Below, piece by piece: positions 2 through 33,677 of a stretch of 35,492 nt of DNA; the first letter of the stretch is position 1, and each line of letters begins with the position of its first letter. The notes below the pieces were generated by a model. The model was not told the origin of the DNA. It made no database searches and saw only the letters and a list, made by a program, of their open reading frames with translations. Where the stretch lies: NCBI RefSeq assembly GCF_004799395.1, contig NZ_SSMZ01000025.1:1-35492 (forward strand). Direction: 5' to 3'. The stretch is from Phenylobacterium sp. Lineage in GTDB: Bacteria; Pseudomonadota; Alphaproteobacteria; Caulobacterales; Caulobacteraceae. The position numbers and the translations under genes were made by a program.

Positions 2-133
2 CTGGAGGCCATGAAGATGGAACACGCACTGACGGCCCCCTTCGACGGGACGGTGGAGGCGGTGTCGGCGACCCTCGGCGCCCAGGTCAGCGAAGGCGCG
101 GTGCTGGCCAAGCTCAGCGCAAGCGAATCCTAG
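2..133 (+). CDS. Biotin carboxyl carrier domain, C-terminal end of an acyl-CoA carboxylase alpha subunit (5' partial)
   Basis: Only the last 43 codons are in the window, and the reading frame is open to the left edge. It contains the biotin attachment motif EAMKMEH, whose second lysine carries biotin, followed by the usual beta-strand pattern of a biotinyl/lipoyl domain ('GTVEAV', 'GAQVSEGAVLAKL'). In acyl-CoA carboxylases (3-methylcrotonyl-, propionyl- or geranyl-CoA type) this domain ends the alpha subunit, after biotin carboxylase, and shuttles carboxyl-biotin to the beta subunit. EAMKMEH is typical of methylcrotonyl-CoA carboxylase alpha subunits, but the substrate cannot be fixed from this fragment. 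Its TAG stop overlaps the stop of the convergent thiolase gene in the tetranucleotide CTAG. Confidence 0.9.
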   Translation: MEAMKMEHALTAPFDGTVEAVSATLGAQVSEGAVLAKLSASES

Positions 134-4760: not shown

Positions 4761-4790
4761 TCAAGCTTCTTCATGGTTCAGCATGCTTGA
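4761..4790. promoter_or_regulatory. Inverted repeat TCAAGC-N18-GCTTGA in the divergent region before cpaB
   Basis: The 244-base gap between the aldo/keto reductase (-) and cpaB (+) holds no convincing gene; in particular no small Flp-pilin-like ORF is seen. It contains a perfect six-base inverted repeat, TCAAGC at 4761-4766 and GCTTGA at 4785-4790. The right arm overlaps a possible -35 element TTGACG (4787-4792), but no well-spaced -10 box follows. It could be an operator or chance; no regulator in the window is an obvious partner. Confidence 0.3.
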
Positions 4791-4881
4791 CGGCCTATTC
4801 ACTAGGTTTGTTGGGGATATCGCAAGCCTCCCCTCCCTAAGGTCACGATCTCAAAAGAGCTTTTTTGGCGGACGGATTCCC

Positions 4882-5856
4882 ATGCGCGTCGTCACCATTG
4901 TCAGCCTCGGAGGTTGCGCCCTGTTCGGGCTGGCCGCCCTGGTGGTCGCCAAGACCATGATCCCCAACCCCGGGACCGTGAAGGTCGCCACGGCGGCGCC
5001 CGTCGCCGGTGTGCCGGTGGTCGTGGCCAAGGGTCCCCTGAAGTTCGGCGACAAGCTGGACGCCAGCAAGATCGAGATCCTGAACATCCCGTCCAACGCG
5101 GTGCCGGAGGGCGCTTTCACCACCACCGCCCAGGTGCTGTCGCAGGACTCGGGCGGGCCGCCGGTGGCGCTGACCCCGATCGCTGCGCGCGAACCACTTT
5201 TGCCGGCCAAGCTCAGCGGACCTGGCGCGCGCGCCTCGGTCGCCGCCGAGATCCGGGACGGCTTCCGCGCCTACACCATCAAGGTCACCGACGTGACCGG
5301 CGTCGGCGGCCATGCCCTGCCCGGCGACCGGGTGGACGTGGTGCTTATGCGTGACACCTCGAGCGATCCGCAGAAGCACAGCTATGTGTCGCAGGTCGTG
5401 ATCCAGGACGTGCGCGTCCTTGGCGTCGACCTTAACGCCGACCTGGCCTCCAACAAACCCGCCACCCCCAACACCGCGACCCTCGAGGTCAGCGTGCCCG
5501 ACGCCCAGAAGCTGGCGGTGGCCGGCGACCTGGGCAAGCTGAGCCTGGCGCTACGCCGCACCGGCTCGACCGAGGTCGCCCAGACCGCGCCGATGAACGC
5601 GAGCTTCGCCGGCGGCGGTCAGGCGCGGCCGATCCACGCCTCTGTGCGCCGCGCCGCGACCGCGCCCTCCGCGCCCGTCACGCCCATGATCCTGATCGTC
5701 GAGGGCGACGGCCGCGGCGACGGTTCGCACAAATCGTCGCACAAGGACCGCGCGCCCAAGCCGCCCGCAGCCCCCGCGCCCCCGGCCGTCCCCGCGCTCG
5801 ACCCGCCCAAGGCGACGGCGTCGCTGTCGGTGGCGTCTTCGGGGCAGCCCTCGTGA
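4882..5856 (+). CDS. cpaB: Flp/Tad pilus assembly protein CpaB
   Basis: 324 residues from this ATG. The longer ORF start at 4783 would add 33 residues before the membrane helix and is less likely. An N-terminal transmembrane anchor (residues 4-24) is followed by an SAF-like domain ('GVPVVVAKGPLKFGDKL', about 41-112) and an RcpC/CpaB domain ('AYTIKVTDVTGVGGHALPGDRVDVVL', about 118-240). The C-terminal tail is rich in Ala, Pro and Lys. CpaB/RcpC is a periplasmic component that works with the secretin in Tad pili. It is the first gene of the six-gene operon, and its TGA overlaps a GTG codon of the next frame. A missing upstream pilA/cpaA makes this locus unlike the canonical Caulobacter cluster. 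Confidence 0.92.
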   Translation: MRVVTIVSLGGCALFGLAALVVAKTMIPNPGTVKVATAAPVAGVPVVVAKGPLKFGDKLDASKIEILNIPSNAVPEGAFTTTAQVLSQDSGGPPVALTPIAAREPLLPAKLSGPGARASVAAEIRDGFRAYTIKVTDVTGVGGHALPGDRVDVVLMRDTSSDPQKHSYVSQVVIQDVRVLGVDLNADLASNKPATPNTATLEVSVPDAQKLAVAGDLGKLSLALRRTGSTEVAQTAPMNASFAGGGQARPIHASVRRAATAPSAPVTPMILIVEGDGRGDGSHKSSHKDRAPKPPAAPAPPAVPALDPPKATASLSVASSGQPS

Positions 5857-5891
5857 GTTTCCCCGCTTCGCGATTCCGGGAGTTCCTGACC

Positions 5892-7361
5892 ATGCCGCGC
5901 CAACTGGCCGCCGCGGCGGCCGCCGCCCTGACCCTGTTCAGCGCCGGCGCCGTCGCCCTGCCGGCCCACGCCGACGCCATGATGAGCGAGCAGGCCCCCA
6001 GCCGCGTCATCACCGTGCCCAAGGACAAGTCGCTGTCCTTCCGCCTTGACGAACCGGCCAGCAAGATCGTCGTCGCCCAGCCGGACATCGCCGAGGTGGT
6101 CGCCACCACCGACCGCAGCTTCTATGTCCGCGGCCTCGACATCGGCTCCACGAACCTCCTGGTCTACGGGCCGGGCGGACGGCTGATGCAGGTGATCGAC
6201 GTCCGTGTCGGCGTCGACGCCCAGGCCCTGGAGCGCGACCTGGCCCAGGCCCTGCCCGCTGAGCACATCAAGGTCCAGTCCCTGGGCGAGGGCGTGCTCT
6301 TGACCGGCGATGTCTCCAGCCCCGGCGTGGCGCTGCGCGCCAAGGCCATCGCCGACAAGCTCGCGCCGGATGGCGTGACCTCGATGTTGCGCACCGCCAA
6401 CGCCCAGGTGGTGCTGGAAGTCCGCGTGCTTGAGGCCACCCGTAACGCGTCCCAGGACATCGGCCTGGGCGCCACGCTCAGCAACAACTCGGTCAACTTC
6501 AGCTTCGGCACCGGATTGATCGGCAACTCCCCGCCCAATGGCGTGCTGAGCTTCTCCGGCCACTCGGGCAACACCACCATCGACGCCACCCTGCAGGCCC
6601 TGGAGTCGAAGGGGGTTATCCGCACCCTTGCGCGCCCGAACCTGGTGGCGCTGTCCGGCGAAAAGGCCAGCTTCCTGGCCGGCGGCGAGTTCCCGTTCCC
6701 GATCCCCAGCGGCCTGGGCCAGATCTCCATCGAGTTCCGCCAGTACGGCGTGAAGCTCGACTTCACGCCGACCGTACAGGAAGACGGCAAGATCAGGCTC
6801 TTGGTGGCCCCGGAAGTCAGCGCTCTCGACCCCACCAACACCGTACGCGTCGACAACGTGACCGTCCCTGCGCTGACCGTGCGCCGCGCCAACACCACTG
6901 TGGAGCTGAGGAGCGGCGAATCCCTGGCGATTGGCGGCCTCTTCCAGCACACCGCCCAGACCGACGTGAACCAGATCCCCGGGCTCGGGAACATCCCCAT
7001 CCTGTCGGCCCTGTTCCGCTCGAGCCGCTATCAGCGCAATGAGACCGAACTGCTGATCGTGGTGACACCGCGCATCGTCACCCAGGCCGATATCGACCGG
7101 GACAAGGACCGCACCCTGAGCGGCGTCGAGCCGGACATGGCCGGCTTCCTGCTGAACGGCAAGGCGCTGGACAAGCCGATGTCCCACGACATGCGCGGTC
7201 CGATCGAGCCTCCTGCCCCGGCGGCGGCTCAGGCCAAGGCCCAGACGCCGGCCGCGGCAGCAACGCCGATCCCGGCCCAGGCGCTGCGCGGCGAGATCGC
7301 GCCGCCGGTTCCGACGGCCGCCTCCCTTGAAACCCCCACGGTTCCCGCGTCCGGAAAGTAA
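5892..7361 (+). CDS. cpaC: Tad pilus outer-membrane secretin CpaC
   Basis: 489 residues from the ATG at 5892, which has a GGGAG ribosome binding site nine bases upstream and starts directly with a Sec signal peptide ('MPRQLAAAAAAALTLFSAG', cut after 'AHA'). A GTG at 5853 overlapping the cpaB stop (GTGA) would add 13 residues and is possible. After the signal come the pilus-formation N-terminal domain ('SRVITVPKDKSLSFRL'), a BON-like segment and the secretin core ('ALESKGVIRTLARPNLVALSG', 'IPGLGNIPILSALFRS', 'ETELLIVVTPRIV'). The C-terminal 70 residues are Pro/Ala-rich. It forms the outer-membrane channel for Tad pili or related secretion. Confidence 0.93.
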   Translation: MPRQLAAAAAAALTLFSAGAVALPAHADAMMSEQAPSRVITVPKDKSLSFRLDEPASKIVVAQPDIAEVVATTDRSFYVRGLDIGSTNLLVYGPGGRLMQVIDVRVGVDAQALERDLAQALPAEHIKVQSLGEGVLLTGDVSSPGVALRAKAIADKLAPDGVTSMLRTANAQVVLEVRVLEATRNASQDIGLGATLSNNSVNFSFGTGLIGNSPPNGVLSFSGHSGNTTIDATLQALESKGVIRTLARPNLVALSGEKASFLAGGEFPFPIPSGLGQISIEFRQYGVKLDFTPTVQEDGKIRLLVAPEVSALDPTNTVRVDNVTVPALTVRRANTTVELRSGESLAIGGLFQHTAQTDVNQIPGLGNIPILSALFRSSRYQRNETELLIVVTPRIVTQADIDRDKDRTLSGVEPDMAGFLLNGKALDKPMSHDMRGPIEPPAPAAAQAKAQTPAAAATPIPAQALRGEIAPPVPTAASLETPTVPASGK

Positions 7362-7371
7362 GCGTACTTCG

Positions 7372-8552
7372 ATGAGTCTCCAGTCCCTCAGCGGCAAGCG
7401 TGTCCTCACTCTCGGCCCGGCGCTCGCCGGTCTCGCCGCGGGACCGCTGGCGGGCGCACAGATTGAAGTCGCCGGCCTGGAGCGGCTGATCGGGATCGGC
7501 GCGGCGGACGCCGAACTGATCCTTATCGACGCCGACGCCTGGAGTCCGCCGGCCCTGGCGGCCGCGGTGCAGGCCCTGTCGATCTGCGCGGCGCCACCGC
7601 CCGTCCTGCTCGTCGGTTCGCATCTGCCGACAGCCGTAGTGCGCGGCCTCCTGCGCCTCGAACGCTCCGACGTGCTGGACGCGCCCTATACGCCTGAGGT
7701 GCTGGCGGCCGTCATCGGCACATTGATGGAGCAGAAGCCCGCCCCGGCTGCCCAGCCGGCCGCCCCGCCTCACGCCGTCGATGTCGCCCGTTGCTGGTCT
7801 GTGATCGGCGCGGTGGGCGGCTCAGGCGCCACCACTATCGCCATCGAGGTGGCCACCCAGCTCTGCGCGCGGCAGACCAAGGACAAGAGCGTCTGCCTGA
7901 TCGACCTGCATCTCGCCGACGGCTCGGCCTCGGCCTATCTGGGCGCCCATCCGTCGCTGCGGCTCGCCGAACTGGGCGCCGCTGCGGAAAAGCTCGATGC
8001 GGCCATGCTGCAGGCCTTTGTCACCCCAGTGACCAGCCAGCTCGACCTGCTGGCCGCCCCGCGCGACCCCGACGCCTTCGAGGCCGTCCCGCGCGAGGCG
8101 ATCCTGCGGATGCTGGAGATCGCCTGCGAGAGCTACGACTGGGTGATCCTCGACATGCCGCGCCATCGTCGGAGCTGGAGCCTGGAGGTCCTGGGCGGCT
8201 GCGACGAGGTGCTGGTGGTTTCCGAGCTGACCGTCCCGGCCCTGCTGGCCGCCCGTTCGCTGTCCGATGAGATCGAGCGCGACCTGGGATCCGGTCAGAA
8301 ACCGAGAATCGTCCTGAACCGCCTGGCCAGCCGCATGTTCGGCCCGGCGCCGTCCATGGCCGAAGCCGAGAAGGCCCTACAACGCAAGGCCGAGGCGGGC
8401 GTCAGCTCCGACTGGGAGGCCGCCGCCGCCTCGGTCAACCTGGGCGGACCGATCTCCACCCACCGGCCCAAGTCGAAGATCGTCAAGGACATCCAGACCA
8501 TGGTCGAGCGCCTCGCCAGTCAACCGGCCCGCAACGGCGTGAAGGCCGCCTG

Positions 8553-8553
<1 letters not shown>
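7372..8553 (+). CDS. cpaE: Tad pilus assembly/localisation ATPase-like protein CpaE (TadZ family)
   Basis: 393 residues from ATG 7372; the track's TTG at 7327 would overlap cpaC by 35 bases. The N-terminal part (1-125) resembles a receiver-like domain, followed by a MinD/ParA-type domain. The P-loop region reads 'GAVGGSGATT' (146-155): it keeps the glycines and threonines but lacks both the P-loop lysine and the MinD signature lysine. CpaE/TadZ proteins often have an atypical Walker A, but this one is strongly diverged. 'VCLIDLHLADGSASAYLG' and 'DWVILDMPRHR' match the switch and Walker B regions. CpaE/TadZ targets the pilus machine to its cellular site. The next gene, cpaF, starts on the last base of its stop codon (TGATG). 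Confidence 0.88.
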
Positions 8554-9992
<1,439 letters not shown>

Positions 9993-10000
9993 GCCCCGCC

Positions 10001-10960
10001 ATGAAATTCGACGGCCACCTCATCTTCCTGATCCTGGTCTTCGCCGCGGTGTTCACCGCCGGCCAGGCCGTGATCGGCCTCGTGTCGGTGGCCACCCAGA
10101 AGCGCAAGGTCAACAAGCGCCTGAAGGTCGCCGACAAGATCGACGGCGTCTCGGCCCTGGTCATGGAGCTGCGCAAGCAGCGTGGCCTGAACGCCGACGG
10201 TGAGCGCGGCGAACGCTTGCGCTGGCTGTCCAACCTGATCGTCGCCTCGGGCCTGCCGTACAATCCGAAGAAGTGGGCGGTCTATTCGGTCCTGGCGGGC
10301 CTGGTCGGCGGCATGGGCGCGTTCGTCGCCACCAAGAACCCCCTGCTGTTTCCGGTCGGTCTTCTGCTCGTTGGCGTGGGCGGCCCGATCTTCTACCTGA
10401 AGCACTCGGTCAAGAAGCGCGCCAAGGCGCTGGGCTTCCAGCTGCCTCAGGCCCTGGAGATCATCGTGCGCAGCCTTGAGGCCGGCCACCCTGTGCCCAC
10501 CGCCATCAACCTGGTGGGCCGGGAAATGGTCGATCCGATCGGCTCCGAGTTCGGCATGGCCGCCGACGAGATCGCCTATGGCGCCACCATGGAACAGGCC
10601 ATCGCGCGGATGGCCGAACGCTGCCAGCACCCGGACGTCGACCTGTTCGCGGCCACCGTGCGCCTGCAGGAACGCACCGGCGGCAACCTGACCGGCCTCC
10701 TGAAGCTCAACGCCTCCACGGTGCGCGAACGCCACAAGATGCGCCTGAAGATCCAGGCCGCCTCATCGGAAGGCCGCGCCTCGGCGATGATCCTGACCTC
10801 GGCGCCCTTCGTCGCCATCGGCTTCATCGTGATCTCCTCGCCGCATTTCTACGGCGACGTCATCCACGAACCCGTCGTGAAGTGGGGCCTGACCGGCCTG
10901 GGGATCTGGATGTTCATCGGCAACATGGTCATGCGCCGCATGATCGATCTTCGGCTCTAA
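10001..10960 (+). CDS. tadB: Tad inner-membrane platform protein TadB (CpaG)
   Basis: 319 residues. An N-terminal membrane helix (about 5-25) and a pair of helices near 88-130 precede a type II secretion F domain ('LPQALEIIVRSLEAGHPVPTAI', about 150-175, through 'TGGNLTGLLKLNASTVRERHKMR'). Two C-terminal helices follow ('SAMILTSAPFVAIGFIVIS' and 'GLGIWMFIGNMVMRRMIDLRL'). TadB pairs with TadC to form the membrane platform that CpaF acts on. It lies eight bases after cpaF and sixteen before tadC, in the standard order. Confidence 0.94.
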   Translation: MKFDGHLIFLILVFAAVFTAGQAVIGLVSVATQKRKVNKRLKVADKIDGVSALVMELRKQRGLNADGERGERLRWLSNLIVASGLPYNPKKWAVYSVLAGLVGGMGAFVATKNPLLFPVGLLLVGVGGPIFYLKHSVKKRAKALGFQLPQALEIIVRSLEAGHPVPTAINLVGREMVDPIGSEFGMAADEIAYGATMEQAIARMAERCQHPDVDLFAATVRLQERTGGNLTGLLKLNASTVRERHKMRLKIQAASSEGRASAMILTSAPFVAIGFIVISSPHFYGDVIHEPVVKWGLTGLGIWMFIGNMVMRRMIDLRL

Positions 10961-10976
10961 GCCTGGGGGCCCCGCC

Positions 10977-11921
10977 ATGCAGCTCCAGAACATCATCACC
11001 ATCGTCGGCGCGATCTTCATCCTGGCGGGCCTGGGCGGCGTCGCCTGGCTGGCGGCGGGCGAGTTTCGCCTTCGCGCCATCCGCCGCGGCCGCCTGGCCA
11101 CCGCCGGCGGCCCCGGCTTGGCCACGCGCCGGCGCGATCCCAACAGCGGCATCAGCGGCCAGTTCATGGGCCAGATCCGCCGGCTCGGCCAGCAGAGCGC
11201 GGTGCGCGATCCCGCCAAGCTTTCGGTGCTCCGCTCGCGCCTGATGCAGGCCGGCTTCTACAATCGCGAAGCCCCGGTGATCTATCTGGGCGTCCGCGCC
11301 GCCTCCCTGGCCGTCGCCACCTTGGGCGTGATCCTGGTCCTGCCGCTGGTCGCCGGCGGCAAAGCCAGCTTCATGGGCATCGTGGTCGCCGTCGTCCTGG
11401 CGGGCATCGCGATGCTGGGTCCCGACCGCATCCTGAACATGCGCCGCGGCAAGCGCGAGCGGGAGTATTCCGACGGCTTCCCCGACCTCCTGGACCTCTT
11501 GGTGGCCTCGGTGGAAGCAGGCCTGAGCCTGGACGCCGCGGTGACCCGGGTCACCGAGGAATTGGCCCGGCGCTATCCGAACCTGACGGTGCACCTGAGG
11601 TTCCTGGTGCTCGAGCTGCGCGCCGGCAAGTCGCGCAAGGACGCCTGGTCGGCGTTCGCCGACCGCCTGGGCATCGACGACGCCCGCCAGCTCGCCACCA
11701 TGCTGCGCCAGGCCGAGGAGATGGGCACCAGCCTGGGCGAGACCCTCACCGTGTTTTCGCAGGACATGCGCTCCAAGCGGATGCTGCGGGCGGAAGAGAA
11801 GGCCCTGGCCCTGTCCGCCAAGCTGACCGTGCCGCTGATCCTCTTCATCTTCCCCTGCCTGCTGGGCTCACTGATGCTGCCGGCCGCCGCGCGACTGATG
11901 AAGGTCTTCGGTCACCACTAA
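10977..11921 (+). CDS. tadC: Tad inner-membrane platform protein TadC (CpaH)
   Basis: 314 residues. The N-terminal helix (5-27) is followed by an Arg-rich linker, two central membrane helices (about 105-150), and the F domain starting at 'YSDGFPDLLDLLVASVEAGLSL'. It ends with 'LFIFPCLLGSLMLPAAARLMKVFG'. It is the partner of TadB in the Tad platform and the last gene of this operon, directly followed by a strong hairpin. In canonical Tad clusters tadD and pseudopilin genes often follow; here a minus-strand unrelated gene does. Confidence 0.94.
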   Translation: MQLQNIITIVGAIFILAGLGGVAWLAAGEFRLRAIRRGRLATAGGPGLATRRRDPNSGISGQFMGQIRRLGQQSAVRDPAKLSVLRSRLMQAGFYNREAPVIYLGVRAASLAVATLGVILVLPLVAGGKASFMGIVVAVVLAGIAMLGPDRILNMRRGKREREYSDGFPDLLDLLVASVEAGLSLDAAVTRVTEELARRYPNLTVHLRFLVLELRAGKSRKDAWSAFADRLGIDDARQLATMLRQAEEMGTSLGETLTVFSQDMRSKRMLRAEEKALALSAKLTVPLILFIFPCLLGSLMLPAAARLMKVFGHH

Positions 11922-11946: not shown

Positions 11947-13026
11947 TCAGAGCCCATAGGGCCGGTAGGGCCCCGCGATCAGCTGTTCGAAAATGCCCAC
12001 GCCTGTCAGCGTGGCTTCGCCGGGCGCCTCGAACGTCGCGGTGGAGATCGCCTGGATATGCCAGTTCTCCGGCGCGGCCATGTCGACGGCGGCCAGGTCG
12101 ATGTCCTCGCGCGCCACCGCCAGCTCGCCCTTCAGCGCCCCATGGCGCCATTCGCCGCCATAGCCGATGCCGCGCATCAGGAAGACGCTCTTCGGAGCGA
12201 TCCGCACCGTCGCCTCGCCCTGCGCCAGGGGGATCCTCAGCGTCCCGCCCAGCGCATGGCGCGTGCCGGCCTTCAGCGTCACCTCCTCCATCCGAGGCGT
12301 ATCGCAATGCCAGCCGCCTTCGGGCCCGGCGCCGTCGGGCAGGATCACCGCACGGGTGTTCCAGGGCTTGCCTTCGGTGTCCGCGTTGACGTGGAAAAAC
12401 ACGCTGCGATCGGCGAAGTTGAGCGGCGCCCACTGCCAGAAGAAACCCATGATTCCGCCGCCCGGCGTCGGTTGCGGGTCCGGCGCGCCGACGGGGCGGA
12501 TGCCCCAGGAACGGTCGCGGGTGCCGGTCCAGCCGGCGGCGCAGACGCGTCGGTCCCCGTCGACCTCTGTCCAGCCGGAGACCCGCACGTTCTGGGTCAG
12601 CCGCGTGTAGTCCATGAACATCCTGGGCCCGCTGCGGCGGGTGAAGCGGGGCTCTTCGATCGGGAAGGCCCGGCCCTCGAAGGTCAGCTCGCAGGCGAGG
12701 CCCTCGGCCTTTTCCAGCGTGACCTTGAGGGTCTGCAGGGGTTCGACCACCTCGATCCGCACCGGCCCGACGATCAGCTCCATCCGCTCCATGCCGAGGA
12801 TCCGCGAGGCGTGCAGGCACCGCTGCCCCCCGTCGCGGATGATCGAGATGTGGGCGTCGGCCACGTTCAGCGCCGGATAGACCCCGAAGGCCACAGCTAC
12901 GAACTCCGACCCGTCCGGCGAATAGCCGTTGAAGAAATAGCGGTCGTAGAAATTGCGGTCCGACCCGGCGTAGGCGATCGGCTCCGGCGTCTGGTGGATC
13001 GGGAAATCGTCGCCCTTGGTCAGCAT
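11947..13026 (-). CDS. Uncharacterised protein, possibly AttH/CrtC-like double lipocalin fold
   Basis: 359 residues without signal peptide or membrane helices. It opens with 'HQTPEPIAYAGSDRNFYDRYFFNGY' and is beta-rich throughout, with frequent Trp and Arg ('SGWTEVDGDRRVCAAGWTGTRDRSWGIRPVG', 'WQWAPLNFADRSVFFHVN'). The 'RDRSWGIR' segment and overall texture recall the AttH / hydroxyneurosporene-synthase-like family and proteins currently split into two DUF domains. I am not certain of the family and see no catalytic motif. It faces the cytochrome P450 gene across a 98-base divergent region, and neighbours of this type are often seen in steroid, terpenoid or fatty-acid catabolic regions. A shared control site is plausible. 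Confidence 0.75.
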   Translation of the reverse strand: MLTKGDDFPIHQTPEPIAYAGSDRNFYDRYFFNGYSPDGSEFVAVAFGVYPALNVADAHISIIRDGGQRCLHASRILGMERMELIVGPVRIEVVEPLQTLKVTLEKAEGLACELTFEGRAFPIEEPRFTRRSGPRMFMDYTRLTQNVRVSGWTEVDGDRRVCAAGWTGTRDRSWGIRPVGAPDPQPTPGGGIMGFFWQWAPLNFADRSVFFHVNADTEGKPWNTRAVILPDGAGPEGGWHCDTPRMEEVTLKAGTRHALGGTLRIPLAQGEATVRIAPKSVFLMRGIGYGGEWRHGALKGELAVAREDIDLAAVDMAAPENWHIQAISTATFEAPGEATLTGVGIFEQLIAGPYRPYGL

Positions 13027-13046
13027 TCGTGATCCTCCAGTCCCAT

Positions 13047-13059
13047 TGACGCGCCGTCA
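13047..13059. promoter_or_regulatory. Inverted repeat TGACG-CGC-CGTCA between divergent genes
   Basis: The 98-base region between the unknown gene (-) and the P450 operon (+) contains a perfect 5-3-5 dyad, TGACGCGCCGTCA, 20 bases upstream of the minus-strand start. A plausible operator for a dimeric repressor controlling one or both directions. No -35/-10 pair with good spacing was found, and no cognate regulator gene adjoins. Confidence 0.35.
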
Positions 13060-13124
13060 CGCTTGCGGGTCGCCGCCGGCGCGTATCAAGTGTGCGCGAC
13101 AAGAAGAACACAAGGGAGGGTCAA

Positions 13125-14411
13125 ATGAGCGTCATGACCGCTGCAGACCATCGAATCCCGAAAGACCAGGCCGCGATCCTGGTCGAGCCGGCGGCTTACG
13201 CCGACGGACGCATCCAGGAGACCTACCGCTGGCTGCGCGCCAACGAGCCGCTCGGCGTCGCGAGCATCGAAGGCGTCGATCCCTTCTGGGCAGTCACCCG
13301 CCACGCCGACATCCTGGAGATCAGCCGCCAGAACGACCTGTTCCACAACGGCGACCGCTCGCCGACCCTGGTCAGCCAGGACGCAGATCGGCAGGTCCGC
13401 GAGATGATGGGCGGCAGCCCGCACCTCCTGCGCACCCTGATCCACATGGATGCGCCGGATCACCTGAAGTACCGCCTGCTGACCCAGGCCTGGTTCATGC
13501 CCCAGAACCTGAAACGCCTGGAGGACCAGATCCGGGCGATCGCCAAAGCGGCCGTCGAGAAGATGGCGGCGGCCGGCGGACACTGCGACTTCGTCCAGGA
13601 GGTCGCCCTGCACTACCCGCTCAGGGTCATCATGAGCATCATGGGCGTGCCGCAGTCCGACGAACCGCGCATGCTGAAGCTCACCCAGGAGCTGTTCGGC
13701 GCCGCTGACCCCGAGCTGGCCCGCGACGCGTCCACGCCGCCCGCGGAACGCAAGTTCGACATGAGCGTGGTCATCGACTTCTCGAATTATTTCCGCGCCA
13801 TCTCCGAGGACCGTCGCGCCCACCCGACCGACGACCTGGCCAGCCTGATCGCCAACTCCCAGATCGACGGCCAGCCGATCAGCGACCTCGAGGCGATGAG
13901 CTACTACATCATCGTCGCCACCGCCGGGCACGACACCACCTCGTCCTCCACCGCCGGCGCGCTCTGGGCGCTGGCCGAGAATCCCAAGCAGCTGGCCAAG
14001 GTGAAGGCCGATCCGTCGCTGATCCCCGGCCTGGTGGACGAGTCCATCCGCTGGACCACGCCGGTGAAGACCTTCATGCGCACGGCCACCGCGGACGTCG
14101 CCTTTGCCGACCGCGACATCAAGAAGGGCGATTGGCTGATGCTCTGCTACGCCTCGGGTAATCGCGACGAAGCCGCGTTCGAGGCGCCCGATGAGTTCCG
14201 GGTCGACCGCAAGCCCAACCGGCATCTGGCTTTCGGCTATGGCGCGCACCTGTGCCTGGGCCAGCACCTGGCCAAGATGGAGATGCGCATCCTCTGGGAG
14301 GAACTGCTGCCCCGGCTCTCCGAGCTGGCGCTGGACGGCGTCCCGGCCATGAGCGAGGCCGTGTTCGTCAACGGACCCAAACGCCTGCCGATCCGCTTCC
14401 GGATGGCCTGA
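13125..14411 (+). CDS. Cytochrome P450 monooxygenase
   Basis: 428 residues from ATG 13125, which follows a strong AGGGAGGG ribosome binding site (13113-13120); the track's GTG at 13092 is less likely. Bacterial soluble class I P450: I-helix 'AGHDTTSS' (267-274) with the acid-threonine pair, K-helix ExxR as 'ESIR' (306-309), and haem loop 'FGYGAHLCLGQHLA' with axial Cys377. It needs ferredoxin and ferredoxin reductase partners, which are not in the window. It resembles P450s acting on terpenes, steroids or fatty acids, but the substrate cannot be told. It is the first gene of an operon with a kinase three bases downstream, a small helical protein and an exporter, so a hydroxylated product handled by the kinase is a natural hypothesis. 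Confidence 0.95.
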   Translation: MSVMTAADHRIPKDQAAILVEPAAYADGRIQETYRWLRANEPLGVASIEGVDPFWAVTRHADILEISRQNDLFHNGDRSPTLVSQDADRQVREMMGGSPHLLRTLIHMDAPDHLKYRLLTQAWFMPQNLKRLEDQIRAIAKAAVEKMAAAGGHCDFVQEVALHYPLRVIMSIMGVPQSDEPRMLKLTQELFGAADPELARDASTPPAERKFDMSVVIDFSNYFRAISEDRRAHPTDDLASLIANSQIDGQPISDLEAMSYYIIVATAGHDTTSSSTAGALWALAENPKQLAKVKADPSLIPGLVDESIRWTTPVKTFMRTATADVAFADRDIKKGDWLMLCYASGNRDEAAFEAPDEFRVDRKPNRHLAFGYGAHLCLGQHLAKMEMRILWEELLPRLSELALDGVPAMSEAVFVNGPKRLPIRFRMA

Positions 14412-14414
14412 CGC

Positions 14415-15443
14415 TTGCCGGTTCATCCCCTGGAGCCGCGGCTCGCGGCCTATATCGCCGGCCGCCTGCCAGGCGCCGCCGATGTGACGGTGAGCGGCCT
14501 GGAGCGCATCTCCGGCGGCGCGTCTCGCGAGACATACCGGTTTCTTGCCAACTGGCGGCAGGGCGACGAGATGGTGACGCGGCGGCTGATCCTGCGGCGC
14601 GATCCGCCGGCCAGCCTGATCGACACCGAGCGTCGGGTGGAGTTCGCCGCCTACCGGGCCTTCCACGGCTCGGCCGTGCCGGTGCCGGCCATGTTGTGGC
14701 TGGAGGAGGCGGACGGGCCGCTGGACCATCCGTTCTTCATCGCCGAGGAGCTCGGCGGCTATCAAGCCTCGCCGCAACTGATGTTCGCGGGCGGCTATGA
14801 GGCGGTCCTGCCGCGGCTTGCCGAGCGCAAATGGACCATCCTGGGGCAGATCGCCCGCGCCGACCCGGCCGCGCTTGGCCTGACGCAGGTGATGGAGCCT
14901 GTAGCGCTCGACGGCTGCTGGCGGCGCGAACTGGACCACTGGGAGACGATCCTCGACTCCGACGAGGCCGAACCGCAGCCGATCGCGCGCGCCGCCATCC
15001 GTTGGCTGCGCAAGAACCCGCCGCCGCCCGCCCAGAAGCTGTCGGTCGTCCATGGCGACTACCGCACCGGCAACTTCCTCTACGACGAGACCGGCGAGAT
15101 CCACGGAGTGCTGGACTGGGAGATGGCCCACCTGGGCGACCCGCTGGAGGACCTGGCGTGGGGCTTCAATCCGGTCTGGCAATTCGGACGAAGCCTGGCC
15201 GGCGGCCTGGCGCCCCAGGACGAGGCGATCGCGATCTGGGAGCGCGCCAGCGGGCTCACCGCCGATCCGGGGGCGCTGCACTGGTGGATTCTGTTCAATT
15301 GCGTGAAGGGCCAAGGAATCTGGATAGGCTCGGCGCGGGCGTTCATCGACGGAGGCAATACCGATCCGATCATGGTCTACGCCGCCTGGTGGCTGCTGAA
15401 CGCCCAGGACCGGGCGATTCTGAAGGTGATGGGCAAGCTATGA
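14415..15443 (+). CDS. APH-family phosphotransferase, LvaA/ACAD10-11-kinase-like
   Basis: 342 residues starting at a TTG three bases after the P450 stop. Aminoglycoside-phosphotransferase-fold kinase: nucleotide-binding region 'ISGGASRETYRF' (32-43), catalytic loop 'HGDYRTGN' (213-220) and metal-binding 'LDWE' (233-236) followed by 'AHLGDPLEDLAW'. This pattern is the 'phosphotransferase family' common in acyl-CoA catabolic loci rather than in antibiotic resistance. Characterised relatives include LvaA, which phosphorylates 4-hydroxyvaleryl-CoA, and the kinase domains of ACAD10/11. Its stop overlaps the ATG of the small downstream gene (ATGA), the arrangement expected for LvaA with its LvaB partner. 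The actual substrate is unproven. Confidence 0.88.
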   Translation: MPVHPLEPRLAAYIAGRLPGAADVTVSGLERISGGASRETYRFLANWRQGDEMVTRRLILRRDPPASLIDTERRVEFAAYRAFHGSAVPVPAMLWLEEADGPLDHPFFIAEELGGYQASPQLMFAGGYEAVLPRLAERKWTILGQIARADPAALGLTQVMEPVALDGCWRRELDHWETILDSDEAEPQPIARAAIRWLRKNPPPPAQKLSVVHGDYRTGNFLYDETGEIHGVLDWEMAHLGDPLEDLAWGFNPVWQFGRSLAGGLAPQDEAIAIWERASGLTADPGALHWWILFNCVKGQGIWIGSARAFIDGGNTDPIMVYAAWWLLNAQDRAILKVMGKL

Positions 15444-15823
15444 CGCCGCAGGTCCCGTCCGTCCTGGCCGAGATGGCCCAGCTGTTGCTGCGCAACGCCG
15501 CGCCCGACGTTCCCGCAGCCGAACGAGCCAATGCGCTCGGCCTGGCCGCCGCTGTGCTGGGCGTCGCCGCCGAGGTCTGGGACGAGGCCGCGGAGAACCT
15601 GGTCGCCGAGAACCGCGCGCTCGCGGCCTTGCTGGACGACACCGTCGACGAGGCCAGCCTCAGGCTCTCGGCCCTGCGCGTCGAGAACCAGCGCCTGCGC
15701 GAACGCCTGATCGCCGCCCACATCGCCGCCGAAGAGGCCGGCGACTTAAGACGCCAGAACGCCATCTGGGCGGAACTGATCGCCTCGACCGAGCGGCGCA
15801 AGCTCTCGATCTCGCCGGTCTGA
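15440..15823 (+). CDS. Small helical protein coupled to the kinase; LvaB-like candidate
   Basis: 127 residues, not listed as its own ORF because the track merges it into a longer shadow frame (14831-15823). ATG overlaps the kinase stop by four bases. The protein is almost wholly alpha-helical and rich in Ala, Leu, Glu and Arg: 'RANALGLAAAVLGVAAEVWDE', then a heptad-like 'LRVENQRLRERLIAAHIAAEE' and 'NAIWAELIASTERRKLSI'. No signal peptide or membrane helix is clear. Size, position and coupling fit LvaB, the small protein required for LvaA kinase activity in Pseudomonas putida levulinate catabolism. That assignment rests on gene order and general character, not on an alignment. Confidence 0.8.
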   Translation: MTPQVPSVLAEMAQLLLRNAAPDVPAAERANALGLAAAVLGVAAEVWDEAAENLVAENRALAALLDDTVDEASLRLSALRVENQRLRERLIAAHIAAEEAGDLRRQNAIWAELIASTERRKLSISPV

Positions 15824-15837
15824 CGGGGGGTCTCACC

Positions 15838-17364
15838 ATGGCCTCGCAGCAGGACATCGCCAACCGCATCCCGATCACCGGCGCCTTGATGCTGGCGACG
15901 CTGATGAACACCTTGGATTCGACCATCGCCAACGTCGCCCTGCCGCACATACAGGGCAGCGTCTCGGCCTCGGCCGAGGAAATCGTCTGGGTGCTGACCA
16001 GCTACATTATCGCGACCGCCATCATGACGCCGCTGTCGGGCTGGCTCTCCATGAAGATCGGCCGCAAGACCATGTTCCTGGCGTCGATCGCCGGCTTCAC
16101 CCTGGCCTCGATCCTCTGCGGGATCGCCACCTCGCTGCCGGAGATCGTCATCTTCCGGCTCGCCCAGGGCGTCGCCGGCGCTTCGCTGATCCCGCTCTCA
16201 CAGACGGTGATGCTGGACATCTATCCGCAGCGGATGATCCCGCGGGTGATGAGCATCTGGAGCGCCGCGGTGATCCTGGGTCCGATCATAGGGCCGACCC
16301 TGGGCGGCTGGCTGACCGAGGACTTCTCCTGGCGCTGGGTCTTCTACATCAACGTGCCCATCGGCATCCTGGCCTTCTTCGGCATCTGGACCTTCATGGA
16401 CCGCGACGACGGCGGGCGAGAGCGGCCCTTCGACTTCCTCGGCTTTGGCGCGCTCGTCCTGTTCATCGGCGGCTTCCAACTCATGGTCGATCGCGGCCCG
16501 ACGCTCGACTGGTTCGACTCCAAGGAGGTGTGGTTCGAGGCGGCGATCTGCGCCACGGGCCTTTGGGTGTTCGTGGTCCAGACGATCACCGCTAAGCACC
16601 CGTTCTTTCACCGCGACCTGGCCAAGGACGGCAACTTCATCGGCACCACTATCTTCGGCATGTTCGTGGGCGTGCTGCTGTTCTCCACCAGCGCGCTATT
16701 GCCCTCGATGATGCAGACCCTGCTGGGCTATTCCGCCTTCCAGGCGGGCGTCGCCAGCATGACCCGGGGCCTCGGCTCGCTGATCGCCTTCCTGGCGGTG
16801 CCGATGCTGGTGGGGCGCTTCGGGCCGCGCACCGTCCTGCTGGTGGGCGTTCTGCTGTCCAGCCTGGCGCTCTGGCAGATGGGCCAGTTCGACCTCTCCA
16901 TGACGCCCACGCCCATCGAGATCGCCGGCTTCATCCAGGGCCTCGGCACCGGCCTCCTGTTCGCGCCGCTCAATACGCTGGCCTACGCCAAGCTCGCCCC
17001 GATCCACCGCACCGAAGGGACCATCGTCTCGACCATGGCCCGCAGCATCGGCTCCAGCGCCGGCATCTCGGTGCTGCAGGCCCTGCTGATTCGCGACGCC
17101 GCCACCGCCCATGCCGGCCTGACCACCCACATCACGGTCACCAATCCGGTGCTGCGCTGGGCGCTCCCGTCGATGTTCAGCCTGCAGCCCGGTCCCGGTC
17201 TCAGCGCCCTCAACGGCGAGGTCACCCGCCAGGGGACGATGATCAGCTACGACGCCCTTTTCAGCGGCATGGCTGTTGGCTGCCTGTTCCTCGCGCCCAC
17301 CCTGTTGTTCCTCAAGCCGGTGCGCGCAGCGGCGCCTTCGGCGCACGACTTGGTCGCTGACTAG
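15838..17364 (+). CDS. MFS exporter, DHA2 (EmrB/QacA) family
   Basis: 508 residues, the length of 14-helix DHA2 drug:proton antiporters. The first helix contains 'NTLDSTIANVALPHIQGS', the classic DHA2 opening with Asp in helix 1. 'GWLSMKIGRKTMFL' is MFS motif A, and 'GPIIGPTLGGWLTEDFSWRWVFYINVPIG' spans antiporter motif C and the EmrB signature. It lies 14 bases after the small helical gene with a G-rich ribosome binding site, as the last gene of the P450 operon. No EmrA-type membrane-fusion partner adjoins. It probably exports the substrate, product or a toxic analogue of the pathway encoded upstream. Confidence 0.93.
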   Translation: MASQQDIANRIPITGALMLATLMNTLDSTIANVALPHIQGSVSASAEEIVWVLTSYIIATAIMTPLSGWLSMKIGRKTMFLASIAGFTLASILCGIATSLPEIVIFRLAQGVAGASLIPLSQTVMLDIYPQRMIPRVMSIWSAAVILGPIIGPTLGGWLTEDFSWRWVFYINVPIGILAFFGIWTFMDRDDGGRERPFDFLGFGALVLFIGGFQLMVDRGPTLDWFDSKEVWFEAAICATGLWVFVVQTITAKHPFFHRDLAKDGNFIGTTIFGMFVGVLLFSTSALLPSMMQTLLGYSAFQAGVASMTRGLGSLIAFLAVPMLVGRFGPRTVLLVGVLLSSLALWQMGQFDLSMTPTPIEIAGFIQGLGTGLLFAPLNTLAYAKLAPIHRTEGTIVSTMARSIGSSAGISVLQALLIRDAATAHAGLTTHITVTNPVLRWALPSMFSLQPGPGLSALNGEVTRQGTMISYDALFSGMAVGCLFLAPTLLFLKPVRAAAPSAHDLVAD

Positions 17365-17373
17365 GCGTTGGGG

Positions 17374-17718
17374 CTAGCCGTTGGCGGCGCGCGAATCCGC
17401 AGGCGCCTCGGCGCGCTCGGTCATGCCGTAGTCGCGCATCACGCTGGCCACCCGCAGGCGATAGTCAGAGAACACCTCCGCCCGTCCGGCGGCCTGGGCG
17501 CGGCGGTGGGCCTCCAGCGTCCGCCAGGCAGCCACCGCCGCCTCGTCGCGCCAAAAGGACAGCGACAGGATCTTGCCGGGCATCGTCAGGCTCTCGAACC
17601 GCTCGATGGACAAGAACCCGTCCATCGCCTCCAACCGGGGCTTCAAGGCCGCGGCGATGTCCAGGTAGTCCTGACGTCGGTCCGGATGCGGCTCGACCTC
17701 AAAGATGACCGCGATCAC
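17374..17718 (-). CDS. Antibiotic biosynthesis monooxygenase (ABM)-domain protein
   Basis: 114 residues from a GTG at 17718 that overlaps the stop of the upstream NIPSNAP gene (GTGA); the track's 159-residue version reads backwards into that gene and should be trimmed. '[22 protein letters not shown]' begins a ferredoxin-like ABM fold, with '[34 protein letters not shown]' and a closing '[14 protein letters not shown]'. ABM proteins are small dimeric alpha+beta barrels; some are cofactor-free monooxygenases or haem-degrading enzymes, many have unknown roles. It is translationally coupled to a NIPSNAP protein with a related fold, so a complex is possible. Confidence 0.85.
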
Positions 17719-18026
17719 CGCGGCCGCACCGGCTGCAGGAAGGTTCGCGTTTCCTCCAGGATGAATTTCCGCTCCTGGGCGAACTTGAGATTGGCCAGCG
17801 AGGCGGCGTCGGAGCGCAGGCGGCCGCGATAAATCTCGTAAGACGCCAGGCATTCGAAACCGATCATCGCGAGCGCGACGTTGTTGGTCCCTTCATGCGG
17901 CAGGAAATAGCCCAGCAGGTCGCCGCCCAGCGCCGGGATGATGGTCAGCCACTTCCTGGCGTAGTCTTCAAAATCGTCCTTCTTGTAGGGGTCGATGACG
18001 TAGCGGATGCAGCAGGTGATGCTCAT
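17715..18026 (-). CDS. NIPSNAP-family protein
   Basis: 103 residues. '[52 protein letters not shown]' is the typical NIPSNAP half, and '[19 protein letters not shown]' its usual end. NIPSNAP proteins are ferredoxin-like dimeric barrels related to ABM proteins; bacterial members have no settled function. It is the first gene of a two-gene minus-strand operon with the ABM protein and is divergent from an ArsR-like regulator across 116 bases, making it a likely regulatory target. Confidence 0.9.
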
Positions 18027-18142: not shown

Positions 18143-18850
18143 ATGAAAGTCGGCCCCGACATCGCCACGATCGCCGCGTTGCTGGGCGACCCGGCCCGGG
18201 CCAACATGGTCACGGCTCTCAGCGGCGGCCAGGCCCTGACCGCCGGCGAACTGGCCCGCGAGGCCGGGGTCTCCGCCCAGACCGCCAGCTCGCACCTCGC
18301 CAAGCTCGCAGCCGGCGGGCTGATCGAGGGCCGCAAGCAGGGCAGGCACGTCTACTACGCCCTCTCCGGTCCGGACGTGGCCGGCGTGATCGAGGCGCTG
18401 AGCGGCCTGGCGGCGCGCACCGGCCACACCCGCGTCCGCACCGGACCCAAGGAGCCGGCGCTCCGCCGCGCGCGGGTCTGCTACGACCATCTGGCCGGCG
18501 ACCTGGGCGTGGCCATGCTGGACAGCCTGACCCACCGCGGCATGATCGTCGGGTCAGGCGAGACCCTGGTGCTGACTGCCCCGGGCGAAGCCTTCATGAC
18601 GGCGCTGGGCCTCGACCTGCCGGCGCTCTCCAGCCTGCGCCGCCCGCTCTGCAAAGGCTGCCTGGACTGGAGCGTGCGCCGCTCGCACCTGGCCGGCGCG
18701 CTGGGCGCGGCCCTGCTCGAACGCTTCTTCGGCCTGGGCTGGGCCAAGCGAGAGCCGGACAGCCGGATCGTCAGTTTCAGCCCCCGCGGACTCGAGGCCT
18801 TCCGCGAAATCTTCGGAGTCCCGACGGAGAACGCGCAAGCCTTGGCGTGA
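18143..18850 (+). CDS. ArsR-like winged-helix transcriptional regulator with C-terminal cysteine-containing domain
   Basis: 235 residues, about twice the size of a minimal ArsR repressor. Residues 1-80 form the winged helix: 'IAALLGDPARANMVTAL', recognition region 'AGVSAQTASSHLAKLAAGGLI', wing 'RKQGRHVYYAL'. The classic ArsR ELCVCDL metal site is absent. The C-terminal half holds 'ARVCYDHLAGDLGVAM' (Cys113, His116) and 'RPLCKGCLDWSVRRSHLAGALG' (Cys170, Cys173, His182), conserved features of this extended subgroup as I remember it. These could bind a metal or sense redox state, but that is inference. Divergent orientation suggests it controls the NIPSNAP-ABM operon and itself. Confidence 0.85.
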   Translation: MKVGPDIATIAALLGDPARANMVTALSGGQALTAGELAREAGVSAQTASSHLAKLAAGGLIEGRKQGRHVYYALSGPDVAGVIEALSGLAARTGHTRVRTGPKEPALRRARVCYDHLAGDLGVAMLDSLTHRGMIVGSGETLVLTAPGEAFMTALGLDLPALSSLRRPLCKGCLDWSVRRSHLAGALGAALLERFFGLGWAKREPDSRIVSFSPRGLEAFREIFGVPTENAQALA

Positions 18851-18890
18851 CATTCGTCGCCCGCTCGGCTTTGCTGGCGGCGCCGCCGAT

Positions 18891-18902
18891 TTGGCGCGCC
18901 AA
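18891..18902. promoter_or_regulatory. Perfect 12-base palindrome TTGGCGCGCCAA before the DUF35 gene
   Basis: Between the regulator stop and the DUF35 start are two perfect 12-base palindromes: GGCGGCGCCGCC (18876-18887) and TTGGCGCGCCAA (18891-18902). They sit inside a larger dyad, CGGCTT (18865-18870) with AAGCCG (18901-18906). This may be an operator for the DUF35-thiolase pair or a hairpin ending the regulator transcript. The GC-rich composition raises the chance rate for the first; the second, with TT/AA ends, is more notable. Confidence 0.35.
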
Positions 18903-18938
18903 GCCGCAAATCCATTTTCGATAGGGACGGATTTCAAG

Positions 18939-19352
18939 ATGCCACCACCACGGATGTTGCCCGAACCGACGCCCGAGACCCGGAATTTCTGGGACGGCTG
19001 CAAGGCGGGCGAGTTGCGCCTGCAGCGCTGCACCGACTGCGACGGCGGAAGCTATTTCCCGCCCCGGCCCTTCTGCCCCAGGTGCGGCAGTCGCAAGGTC
19101 GAGGCCTACAAGGCCAGCGGCCAGGGCGTTCTCTGGTCCTACGTGATCAACATGCGCCCGCGCCCCGACATGGGAACCGAGCCCTACGCCATCGCGGTGG
19201 TGAAGCTGGCCGAGGGTCCGCAGATGATGACCAACATCGTCGGCTGCCCGCAGACGCCGGAGGCGCTGGTCCTGGACATGCCGGTGAAGGTCACCTTCGC
19301 GCCCCAGAACGACGACATCTCGCTCCCCTTCTTCGAACCGGCGGGAGCTTAA
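18939..19352 (+). CDS. Zn-ribbon / OB-fold (DUF35) acyl-CoA-binding protein
   Basis: 137 residues from ATG 18939, preceded by a TAGGGA ribosome-binding-like segment; the track's TTG start at 18891 falls in the palindrome and is unlikely. 'ETRNFWDGCKAGELRLQRCTDC' leads into a rubredoxin-like zinc ribbon with Cys31, Cys34, Cys46 and Cys49 ('CTDC...CPRC'). An OB-fold follows ('GVLWSYVINMRP', 'PYAIAVVKL', 'DMPVKVTF'). DUF35 proteins pair with thiolase-fold enzymes such as the Ltp2 steroid aldolase and acyl-CoA synthases, supplying part of the CoA-binding site. The gene is four bases upstream of such a thiolase-like gene, as expected for a complex. Confidence 0.93.
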   Translation: MPPPRMLPEPTPETRNFWDGCKAGELRLQRCTDCDGGSYFPPRPFCPRCGSRKVEAYKASGQGVLWSYVINMRPRPDMGTEPYAIAVVKLAEGPQMMTNIVGCPQTPEALVLDMPVKVTFAPQNDDISLPFFEPAGA

Positions 19353-19356
19353 GGCC

Positions 19357-20499
19357 ATGAAGCGCAAATCCATCGCGGTCGTCGGCGCCGCGGAAACCAC
19401 CCAGATGGGCAAGATCCCGAACGTCTCGGTTATCGGCCTGCACGCCGACGCCGCCCTGAACGCCCTGGCCGACTGCGGGCTGAAGCCCAGCGACATCGAC
19501 GGTGTCGCCACCGCCGGTATCAGCCCCGTGGACCTGGCCCACTACATGGGCATCACGCCCACCTATGCGGACGGCACCAGCGTCGGCGGCTGTTCCTTCA
19601 TGCTGCATGTCCGCCATGCCGCCGCGGCGATCAACGAAGGGCTCTGCAACACCGTCCTGATCACCCACGGCGAGAGCGGCCGCTCCCGGGTCGGCGCCGG
19701 CGGCTTCGGCCGCGCGGCCTCCAGCCTCGCCGGCCAGTTCGAGATGCCGTACGGCCCGGCGGGCCCACCGACCATGTTCACGGTTCCCGTGCTCCGCTAC
19801 CTGAAGGCCCGCGGCTACACCGTCGAGGATCTGGCCCAGGTGGCGGTGATCCAGCGCGAGTGGGCGGCGAAGAACCCGCGCGCCAGCTACAAGGACCCGA
19901 TCACCGTCGAGGACGTGCTCAAGTCCGACATGATCGCCTGGCCGTTCACCAAGCTGATGTGCTGCCTGGTCACCGACGGCGGCGGGGCGCTGATCCTCAC
20001 CTCCGCCGAGCGGGCCAAGGACTTCCCGCAGAAGCCGGTCTACATCCTGGGCACGGGCGAGAGCGTCGAGACCCCGATGGTCAGCCAGATGGAGGACTTC
20101 ACCTCGTCGAAGGCCTTCCGCGTCTCCGGCAAGAAGGCGTTCGAGGAGTCCGGCGTCAGCCACGCCGACGTCGACCACCTGATGATCTACGACGCCTTCG
20201 CCCACCTGCCGCTCTACGGCCTGGAGGATCTCGGCTTCTGCAAGCCGGGAGAAGCCGCGGGCTTCATCAAGGGCCGCAACACCGCGCCGGGCGGCAAGCT
20301 GCCGCTCAACACCAACGGCGGGGGCCTCTCCTACATGCACTCCGGGATGTACGGCATGTACGCCCTGCAGGAGAGCGTTCGCCAGATGCGCGGCGTCGCC
20401 CCGGCCCAGGTCCCCGGCGCCAAGATCAGCATCGCCCACGGCGTCGGCGGCATGTTCGCTGCGTCTGGCACCATCGTGTTCTCCAACGAGGCGCCTTAG
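19357..20499 (+). CDS. Thiolase-fold protein, SCP-x/Ltp-like, partner of DUF35
   Basis: 380 residues. 'IAVVGAAETTQMGK' and 'LGLKPSDIDGV'-like opening segments mark the non-classical thiolase family known as lipid-transfer / SCP-x thiolases. Cys79 in 'GTSVGGCSFML' occupies the nucleophile region. The second and third classic motifs are altered: 'HEAF' is 'YDAFAHLPLYGLEDLGF', 'GGxxxxGHPxGxSG' is 'NGGGLSYMHSGMYGMYAL', and the C-terminal 'CxGxG' is 'HGVGGMFAASG'. Such proteins with DUF35 partners include retro-aldolases acting on steroid side chains (Ltp2) and acyltransferases. A true thiolase reaction is therefore uncertain. A REP-like hairpin follows the gene. Confidence 0.9.
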   Translation: MKRKSIAVVGAAETTQMGKIPNVSVIGLHADAALNALADCGLKPSDIDGVATAGISPVDLAHYMGITPTYADGTSVGGCSFMLHVRHAAAAINEGLCNTVLITHGESGRSRVGAGGFGRAASSLAGQFEMPYGPAGPPTMFTVPVLRYLKARGYTVEDLAQVAVIQREWAAKNPRASYKDPITVEDVLKSDMIAWPFTKLMCCLVTDGGGALILTSAERAKDFPQKPVYILGTGESVETPMVSQMEDFTSSKAFRVSGKKAFEESGVSHADVDHLMIYDAFAHLPLYGLEDLGFCKPGEAAGFIKGRNTAPGGKLPLNTNGGGLSYMHSGMYGMYALQESVRQMRGVAPAQVPGAKISIAHGVGGMFAASGTIVFSNEAP

Positions 20500-33666: not shown

Positions 33667-33677
33667 GGGCTCAGGCC

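Follow-up and report, generated by a model that had tools for sequence, protein, structure and literature searches.

A conserved Phenylobacterium gene module with a CYP108-like P450, an APH-fold kinase, a small helical protein and a relative of 25-phosphosteroid lyase, and its possible role in ATP-dependent dehydration

The window examined here is a 35,492-nucleotide stretch of DNA from Phenylobacterium sp. (contig NZ_SSMZ01000025.1), whose source genome measures 4.4 Mb. It carries a row of genes for a cytochrome P450, a kinase of the aminoglycoside phosphotransferase (APH) fold, a small helical protein and a major facilitator superfamily (MFS) exporter, which an initial annotation had read as a possible hydroxylation and phosphorylation pathway built around a kinase pair of the levulinate LvaA/LvaB type. 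The four genes are all genuine open reading frames (ORFs) on the plus strand, and their junctions of 3 bases, an ATGA overlap and 14 bases were reread identically. These junctions, together with the linkage of the P450, kinase and small protein across Phenylobacterium described below, uphold the assignment to a single operon. The feature extends further left, to position 11947, where a divergent lyase gene lies, and probably also right to position 20499, to include genes for a DUF35 protein and a thiolase (Table 1). A scan of the region between the lyase and P450 genes for sigma-70-type promoters and terminators gave no match.

Table 1. Features of the module and its downstream genes, with positions in the window.
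Feature	Positions	Strand	Basis
Rv3169-family protein, predicted phosphate (C-O) lyase, relative of 25-phosphosteroid lyase	11947-13026	-	NF053593, PDB matches
Intergenic region, 98 bases between the divergent lyase and P450 genes, presumed shared promoter region	13027-13124		sequence
Cytochrome P450, CYP108-like	13125-14411	+	PF00067, motifs, P450terp match
APH-fold small-molecule kinase, TTG start	14415-15443	+	PF01636, motifs, PDB relatives, tree
127-aa all-helical protein, predicted obligate kinase partner	15440-15823	+	linkage, DUF6285 comparison, AlphaFold2 (AF2) model
EmrB/DHA2-type MFS exporter	15838-17364	+	TIGR00711
DUF35 / ChsH2-type OB-fold and zinc-ribbon protein, TTG start	18891-19352	+	PF01796, PF12172
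SCP2-type thiolase, thiolase or retro-aldolase partner of the DUF35 protein	19357-20499	+	PF22691

The product of the divergent gene scores 377 bits against NF053593 (cut-off 150). Its only PDB matches are the entries 9fzn, 9g2i and 9g4c, labelled 25-phosphosteroid lyase (25-PSL), which align to residues 2-304 with E = 3e-42 and 36.7% identity over 300 aa. Blocks common to both proteins include SDRNFYDRY and RDRSWG(I/V)RPVG, and the protein belongs to the 25-PSL/Rv3169 family. The P450 is a PF00067 protein in which the heme motif FGYGAHLCLG, the I-helix motif AGHDTT and the ExxR motif are all intact. Its closest solved relative is P450terp (CYP108A1; E = 5e-137, 49.6% identity over 417 aa), and with more than 40% identity to a member and an intact heme-thiolate motif it is placed in the CYP108 family. 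The kinase exceeds the PF01636 cut-off of 23.2 with 118 bits and retains the catalytic HGDYRTGN and DWE motifs, so that both the domain and the HxDxxxxN and DWE signatures identify it as an APH-fold phosphotransferase. Its relatives in the PDB are 3dxp, 9o56, 9fsg, 3ats (Rv3168) and ACAD11.

Gene neighbourhoods were surveyed in 40 fetched loci and 80 named loci. The ORF directly downstream of the kinase encodes 112-154 aa in 77 of 80 loci. Of 299 genomes of the family, 98 encode the small protein; within the window's own genus the figure is 64 of 73. Within Caulobacteraceae, the P450 lies directly upstream of the kinase in 62 of 67 loci and the small protein directly downstream of it in all 67, most commonly through an ATGA-type overlap. 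This arrangement is therefore not due to chance, and the coupling of P450, kinase and small protein, for which a neighbourhood survey had been suggested as a check, is kept across Phenylobacterium. The lyase gene diverges from the operon in 58 of 62 Caulobacteraceae loci. In other bacteria, the genes for the lyase, kinase and small protein are packed into one operon that contains no P450, with overlapping genes at loci L076 and L077, and the kinase and small protein also occur in metagenome-assembled genomes labelled Myxococcota, Deltaproteobacteria and Chloroflexi. A plasmid of Rhodococcus oxybenzonivorans carries, in a row, genes for an AMP ligase, a different P450, a fused DUF35-thiolase, an Rv3169-family protein (364 bits), a kinase, a small protein and an aldehyde dehydrogenase. 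Since this P450 is a different one, the association of a P450 with the module seemingly arose more than once. On a Sphingopyxis macrogoltabida plasmid (L266, NZ_CP013345.1), two uncharacterised proteins (one a weak Rv3169-family match), a kinase, a small protein, an alcohol dehydrogenase, a P450 and a rubredoxin are encoded in a row that is perhaps another version of the module.

The genes farther downstream are linked to this core to differing degrees. The DUF35 gene directly follows that of the small protein in 24 of 65 loci, and a pair of DUF35 and SCP2-type thiolase genes lies within 8 kb downstream in 41 of 54. The thiolase scores 393 bits against PRK06158, just below the cut-off of 421, and the DUF35 protein is a probable associated partner in coenzyme A (CoA) chemistry. 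The exporter scores 362 bits on TIGR00711 (EmrB/DHA2), for which the cut-off is 230. Its gene directly follows that of the small protein in only 7 of 65 loci; it is thus a lineage-specific neighbour outside the conserved unit, and its proposed place in the pathway was not borne out.

The small helical protein is encoded by a real gene, as judged from its retention downstream of the kinase, dN/dS values of 0.37-0.42 and a confident AF2 model of four helices (pLDDT 90). It matched no Pfam family, DUF6285 included, and a Foldseek search of the model against the PDB returned nothing below E = 0.001. Profile comparison by hhalign, for which a fusion protein had been trimmed beforehand, aligned DUF6285 to the N-terminal 65-70 residues. 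The first comparison gave E = 1.6e-4, a probability of 50% and a score of 29.6, whereas 200 column-shuffled profiles reached no more than 20.5; the second gave E = 4.1e-4, 35% and 27.6, as against 23.0 for shuffles. A hidden Markov model of the small protein scored DUF6285 proteins at 15-22 bits (top score 21.9), while 3,100 shuffled sequences reached at most 10.5 bits. The AF2 model of DUF6285 is poor (three sequences, pLDDT 63), which limits the structural comparison with the small protein to the order of helices. Taken together, the profile scores are suggestive of a remote relationship to DUF6285, in which homology is weak but detectable.

In 28 of 30 loci, the gene for DUF6285 itself, on which no paper was found, either immediately follows that of an APH kinase or is fused to it. 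The natural fusions (L089, L093, L095, L099 and L175, the last at 4866-6326) directly support its role as a kinase partner. On a Stutzerimonas plasmid, the gene order is regulator, kinase, DUF6285, phosphatase, acyl-CoA dehydrogenase, short-chain dehydrogenase/reductase (SDR), acyl-CoA synthetase, DUF485 and acetate symporter, which we take to match the lva operon; the DUF6285 protein of this plasmid scores 16.2 bits with the small-protein model. Locus L173 similarly encodes an SDR, an acyl-CoA dehydrogenase, a kinase, DUF6285 and a ligase. DUF6285 thus fills the slot of LvaB, and its assignment as the family of LvaB is made by operon order only. LvaB has a mass of 12 kDa and binds LvaA (PMC6692424). 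Of the proposed LvaB relationship, a remote kinship to the family in LvaB's operon slot is suggested, while membership in a levulinate system is not supported; the small protein is predicted to be an obligate, bound partner of the kinase. At L145 (9944-10588) and L123, a kinase partner that seems to stand midway from the small protein to DUF6285 is encoded beside a divergent Rv3169-family protein. Both partner types are neighbours at L230, L234, L235 and L245, where a DUF6285-linked kinase pair is encoded divergently from the adjacent kinase and small protein of the module.

The position of the kinase was assessed in a tree of 64 rows, in which the deep branching order is weakly supported. The kinases linked to the small protein, including that of the window, form a clade of their own with 100/100 support. 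The DUF6285-linked kinases, among them the kinase of the Stutzerimonas lva-type operon, form a separate group; 9fsg and Rv3168 pair at 100/100 apart from the window kinase, and ACAD11, 3dxp and 9o56 constitute a further group. The kinase therefore falls outside the LvaA group to which it had been assigned. A genuine DUF6285-linked kinase pair is encoded on another contig of the source genome (G000:C271). In view of this pair and of the separate clade, the kinase and small protein resemble LvaA/LvaB in design, not in membership. The entry 9fsg, labelled APH-like in the PDB, is probably the kinase 25-HSK of anaerobic cholesterol breakdown; no paper on the 9fsg or 9o56 structures was found. If this identification holds, the window kinase is not orthologous to 25-HSK, since 9fsg groups with Rv3168. 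The glycine loop of the kinase, GGASRET, resembles the GGASQET common among DUF6285-linked kinases, and it was dropped as a marker of kinship with 25-HSK because those kinases carry GGASQET too.

The closest biochemical precedents for such a set of enzymes come from steroid and terpenoid breakdown. In Sterolibacterium denitrificans, 25-HSK transfers phosphate to the tertiary hydroxyl at C25 of cholesterol derivatives, a lyase eliminates the phosphate to give an alkene, and the allylic C26 is then hydroxylated (PMC8449060; PMC11061730). When the kinase was described in 2021, the lyase gene was unknown and no candidate lay near the 25-HSK gene (PMC8449060). The window shares with this system an APH-fold kinase, a lyase of the same family and, as proposed here, the logic of ATP-dependent dehydration amid hydroxylations. 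The two differ in that the Sterolibacterium hydroxylases are molybdenum enzymes whereas the window encodes a P450, that the window genes are tightly linked and include a dedicated small protein, and that the kinases are distant. P450terp, for its part, hydroxylates the tertiary alcohol alpha-terpineol, yielding 7-hydroxyterpineol (PMC7794910), and the window P450 falls by sequence in the same P450 family.

Considering these precedents and the conserved linkage, we put at roughly 60% the probability that the module serves the degradation or conversion of a hydrophobic alcohol by ATP-dependent dehydration, and infer as follows what it acts on, in which order its enzymes work, that the small protein binds the kinase and that the lyase is active. 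The kinase, with the small protein bound, would phosphorylate a hydroxyl group, perhaps tertiary, of a terpenoid or a steroid-like compound or of the corresponding CoA ester, and the Rv3169-family protein would eliminate the phosphate to leave an alkene, most likely at a cost of one ATP per hydroxyl removed. The P450 may act first and make the hydroxyl that is phosphorylated, or it may act after dehydration and oxidise an allylic methyl group, like the molybdenum hydroxylases in anaerobic cholesterol breakdown or P450terp on alpha-terpineol. The DUF35/thiolase pair would probably cleave the CoA ester at a later stage. One may go further, at odds somewhat short of even, and envisage an undescribed aerobic pathway in which a CYP108-type P450, a two-component kinase with an LvaB-like activator and a phosphosteroid-lyase-type enzyme act together, so that bacteria could degrade branched alcohols of terpenoid or steroid-like type through ATP-dependent removal of the hydroxyl; such kinase-lyase chemistry, in several phyla, would also account for the unassigned pair Rv3168-Rv3169.

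Several observations weigh against ATP-dependent dehydration in this form. The kinase is distant from 9fsg (E = 4e-13) and lies in its own clade, and may thus act on something quite unlike a steroid. 25-HSK functions by itself, as a monomer with no small partner, and such a partner is thus not general. No ferredoxin was identified beside the P450, CYP108 relatives are located elsewhere too in related genomes, and outside Caulobacteraceae the module of kinase, small protein and lyase lacks this P450. Furthermore, no kinase was found nearby in 7 of 15 Rv3169-family loci, which indicates that this lyase also occurs apart from a kinase.

The levulinate-type scheme of the initial annotation offers a different account of the same genes, in which the P450 introduces a hydroxyl group into an acid, the kinase pair adds phosphate to the hydroxyacyl-CoA as LvaA/LvaB would to a 4-hydroxyacyl-CoA, an acyl-CoA dehydrogenase encoded elsewhere performs the elimination, and beta-oxidation continues. 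The small protein is remotely related to DUF6285, the occupant of LvaB's slot, the GGASRET loop and the structural relatives ACAD11 and 3dxp point the same way, and a CoA-active thiolase/DUF35 pair is close by. Nevertheless, among the neighbours scanned, the conserved unit includes no acyl-CoA dehydrogenase, SDR or CoA ligase and has a phosphate-lyase relative instead, and the kinase stands outside the DUF6285/LvaA group in a genome that has a separate DUF6285-linked kinase. We consider this route unlikely, at about one chance in five, although the broader idea of hydroxylation, phosphorylation and elimination is largely supported; its levulinate form is not. Because the operon lacks an acyl-CoA dehydrogenase, the elimination resembles that of the anaerobic cholesterol kinase/lyase pair rather than that of LvaC, and, going by family assignment, the divergent 25-PSL relative, which the initial annotation had not mentioned, is more likely the eliminating enzyme than one of LvaC type. 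The purpose ascribed to phosphorylation, namely elimination, is thereby retained.

Less probable still is a role in biosynthesis or detoxification, with the P450 and kinase modifying a secondary metabolite or xenobiotic and the DHA2 exporter expelling the product. The exporter gene 14 bases downstream and the adjoining ArsR-type regulator, ABM and NIPSNAP proteins would fit such a role, but the exporter accompanies few of the modules (7/65), the lyase would strip a phosphate tag rather than retain it, and the DUF35/thiolase pair and near-universal conservation in Phenylobacterium suggest ordinary metabolism. That the kinase inactivates an antibiotic, as the name of the APH family might imply, is very improbable: it has the PF01636 fold and weak matches to APH(3') and Mph, yet every NCBIfam resistance model scores far below its cut-off, its best PDB relatives are metabolic or unassigned, and it shares an operon with a P450, a lyase and a thiolase.

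The module was also compared with further known systems. Like LvaA/LvaB, the window has an APH kinase followed by an overlapping small helical protein with remote kinship to DUF6285, but among the neighbours scanned it lacks LvaC (acyl-CoA dehydrogenase), LvaD (SDR) and LvaE (ligase) and has a phosphate lyase and a P450 in their place. The terp operon differs in encoding dehydrogenases for alcohols and aldehydes together with redox partners of its own, and is not known to include a kinase or lyase. The Mycobacterium tuberculosis genes for Rv3169 and the APH-fold kinase Rv3168 belong to one operon controlled by the regulator Rv3167c (PMC5340868). This operon likewise unites a kinase relative with an Rv3169-family protein, but comprises two genes only, without a P450 or small protein, and is known only through its regulator. 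ACAD10 and ACAD11 share the kinase fold and the chemistry of phosphorylation followed by elimination (PMC12440821), whereas their kinase domain is fused to an acyl-CoA dehydrogenase and lies on another branch of the tree.

The surroundings of the module are mixed. Tad/Flp pilus genes (CpaB, secretin, CpaE-like, TadA ATPase and two TadB/C) at 4783-11921 (+) end beside the lyase gene, and this neighbourhood recurs at many Phenylobacterium loci. At 17374-18026 (-), ORFs with an ABM domain and a NIPSNAP domain overlap as called, the start of the former probably lying too far upstream, and are followed by an ArsR-type regulator at 18143-18850; this group is recurrent near the module. A minus-strand ORF at 18777-19511, a shadow of that for DUF35, was dropped as a neighbour marker. 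At its left end, the window carries a CoA-transferase family III gene and a thiolase gene at 2465-3685 (-) and 130-1425 (-), and a MoxR-like AAA ATPase and a CoxE-like VWA protein are encoded at 32710-35036 (+). At locus L236, a MoxR/CoxE-like pair and a molybdopterin-binding protein adjoin the lyase gene, which recalls the molybdenum hydroxylases of anaerobic sterol breakdown.

To our knowledge, ATP-dependent dehydration of unactivated alcohols is represented by very few systems, mainly anaerobic cholesterol breakdown, and we know of no gene for its lyase half before the 25-PSL structures. The chemistry proposed here is not of a new kind, but the combination of genes is undescribed. Operons that join members of the kinase and lyase families occur across Alphaproteobacteria and on plasmids of actinobacteria, a conserved small partner connects them with kinases of the LvaA/LvaB type, and Caulobacteraceae add a P450. 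These findings would bring several annotated unknowns, namely the Rv3169 family, DUF6285 and its relative, and many "phosphotransferase family proteins", under one testable reaction, from which a predicted function for the Rv3168-Rv3169 operon follows.

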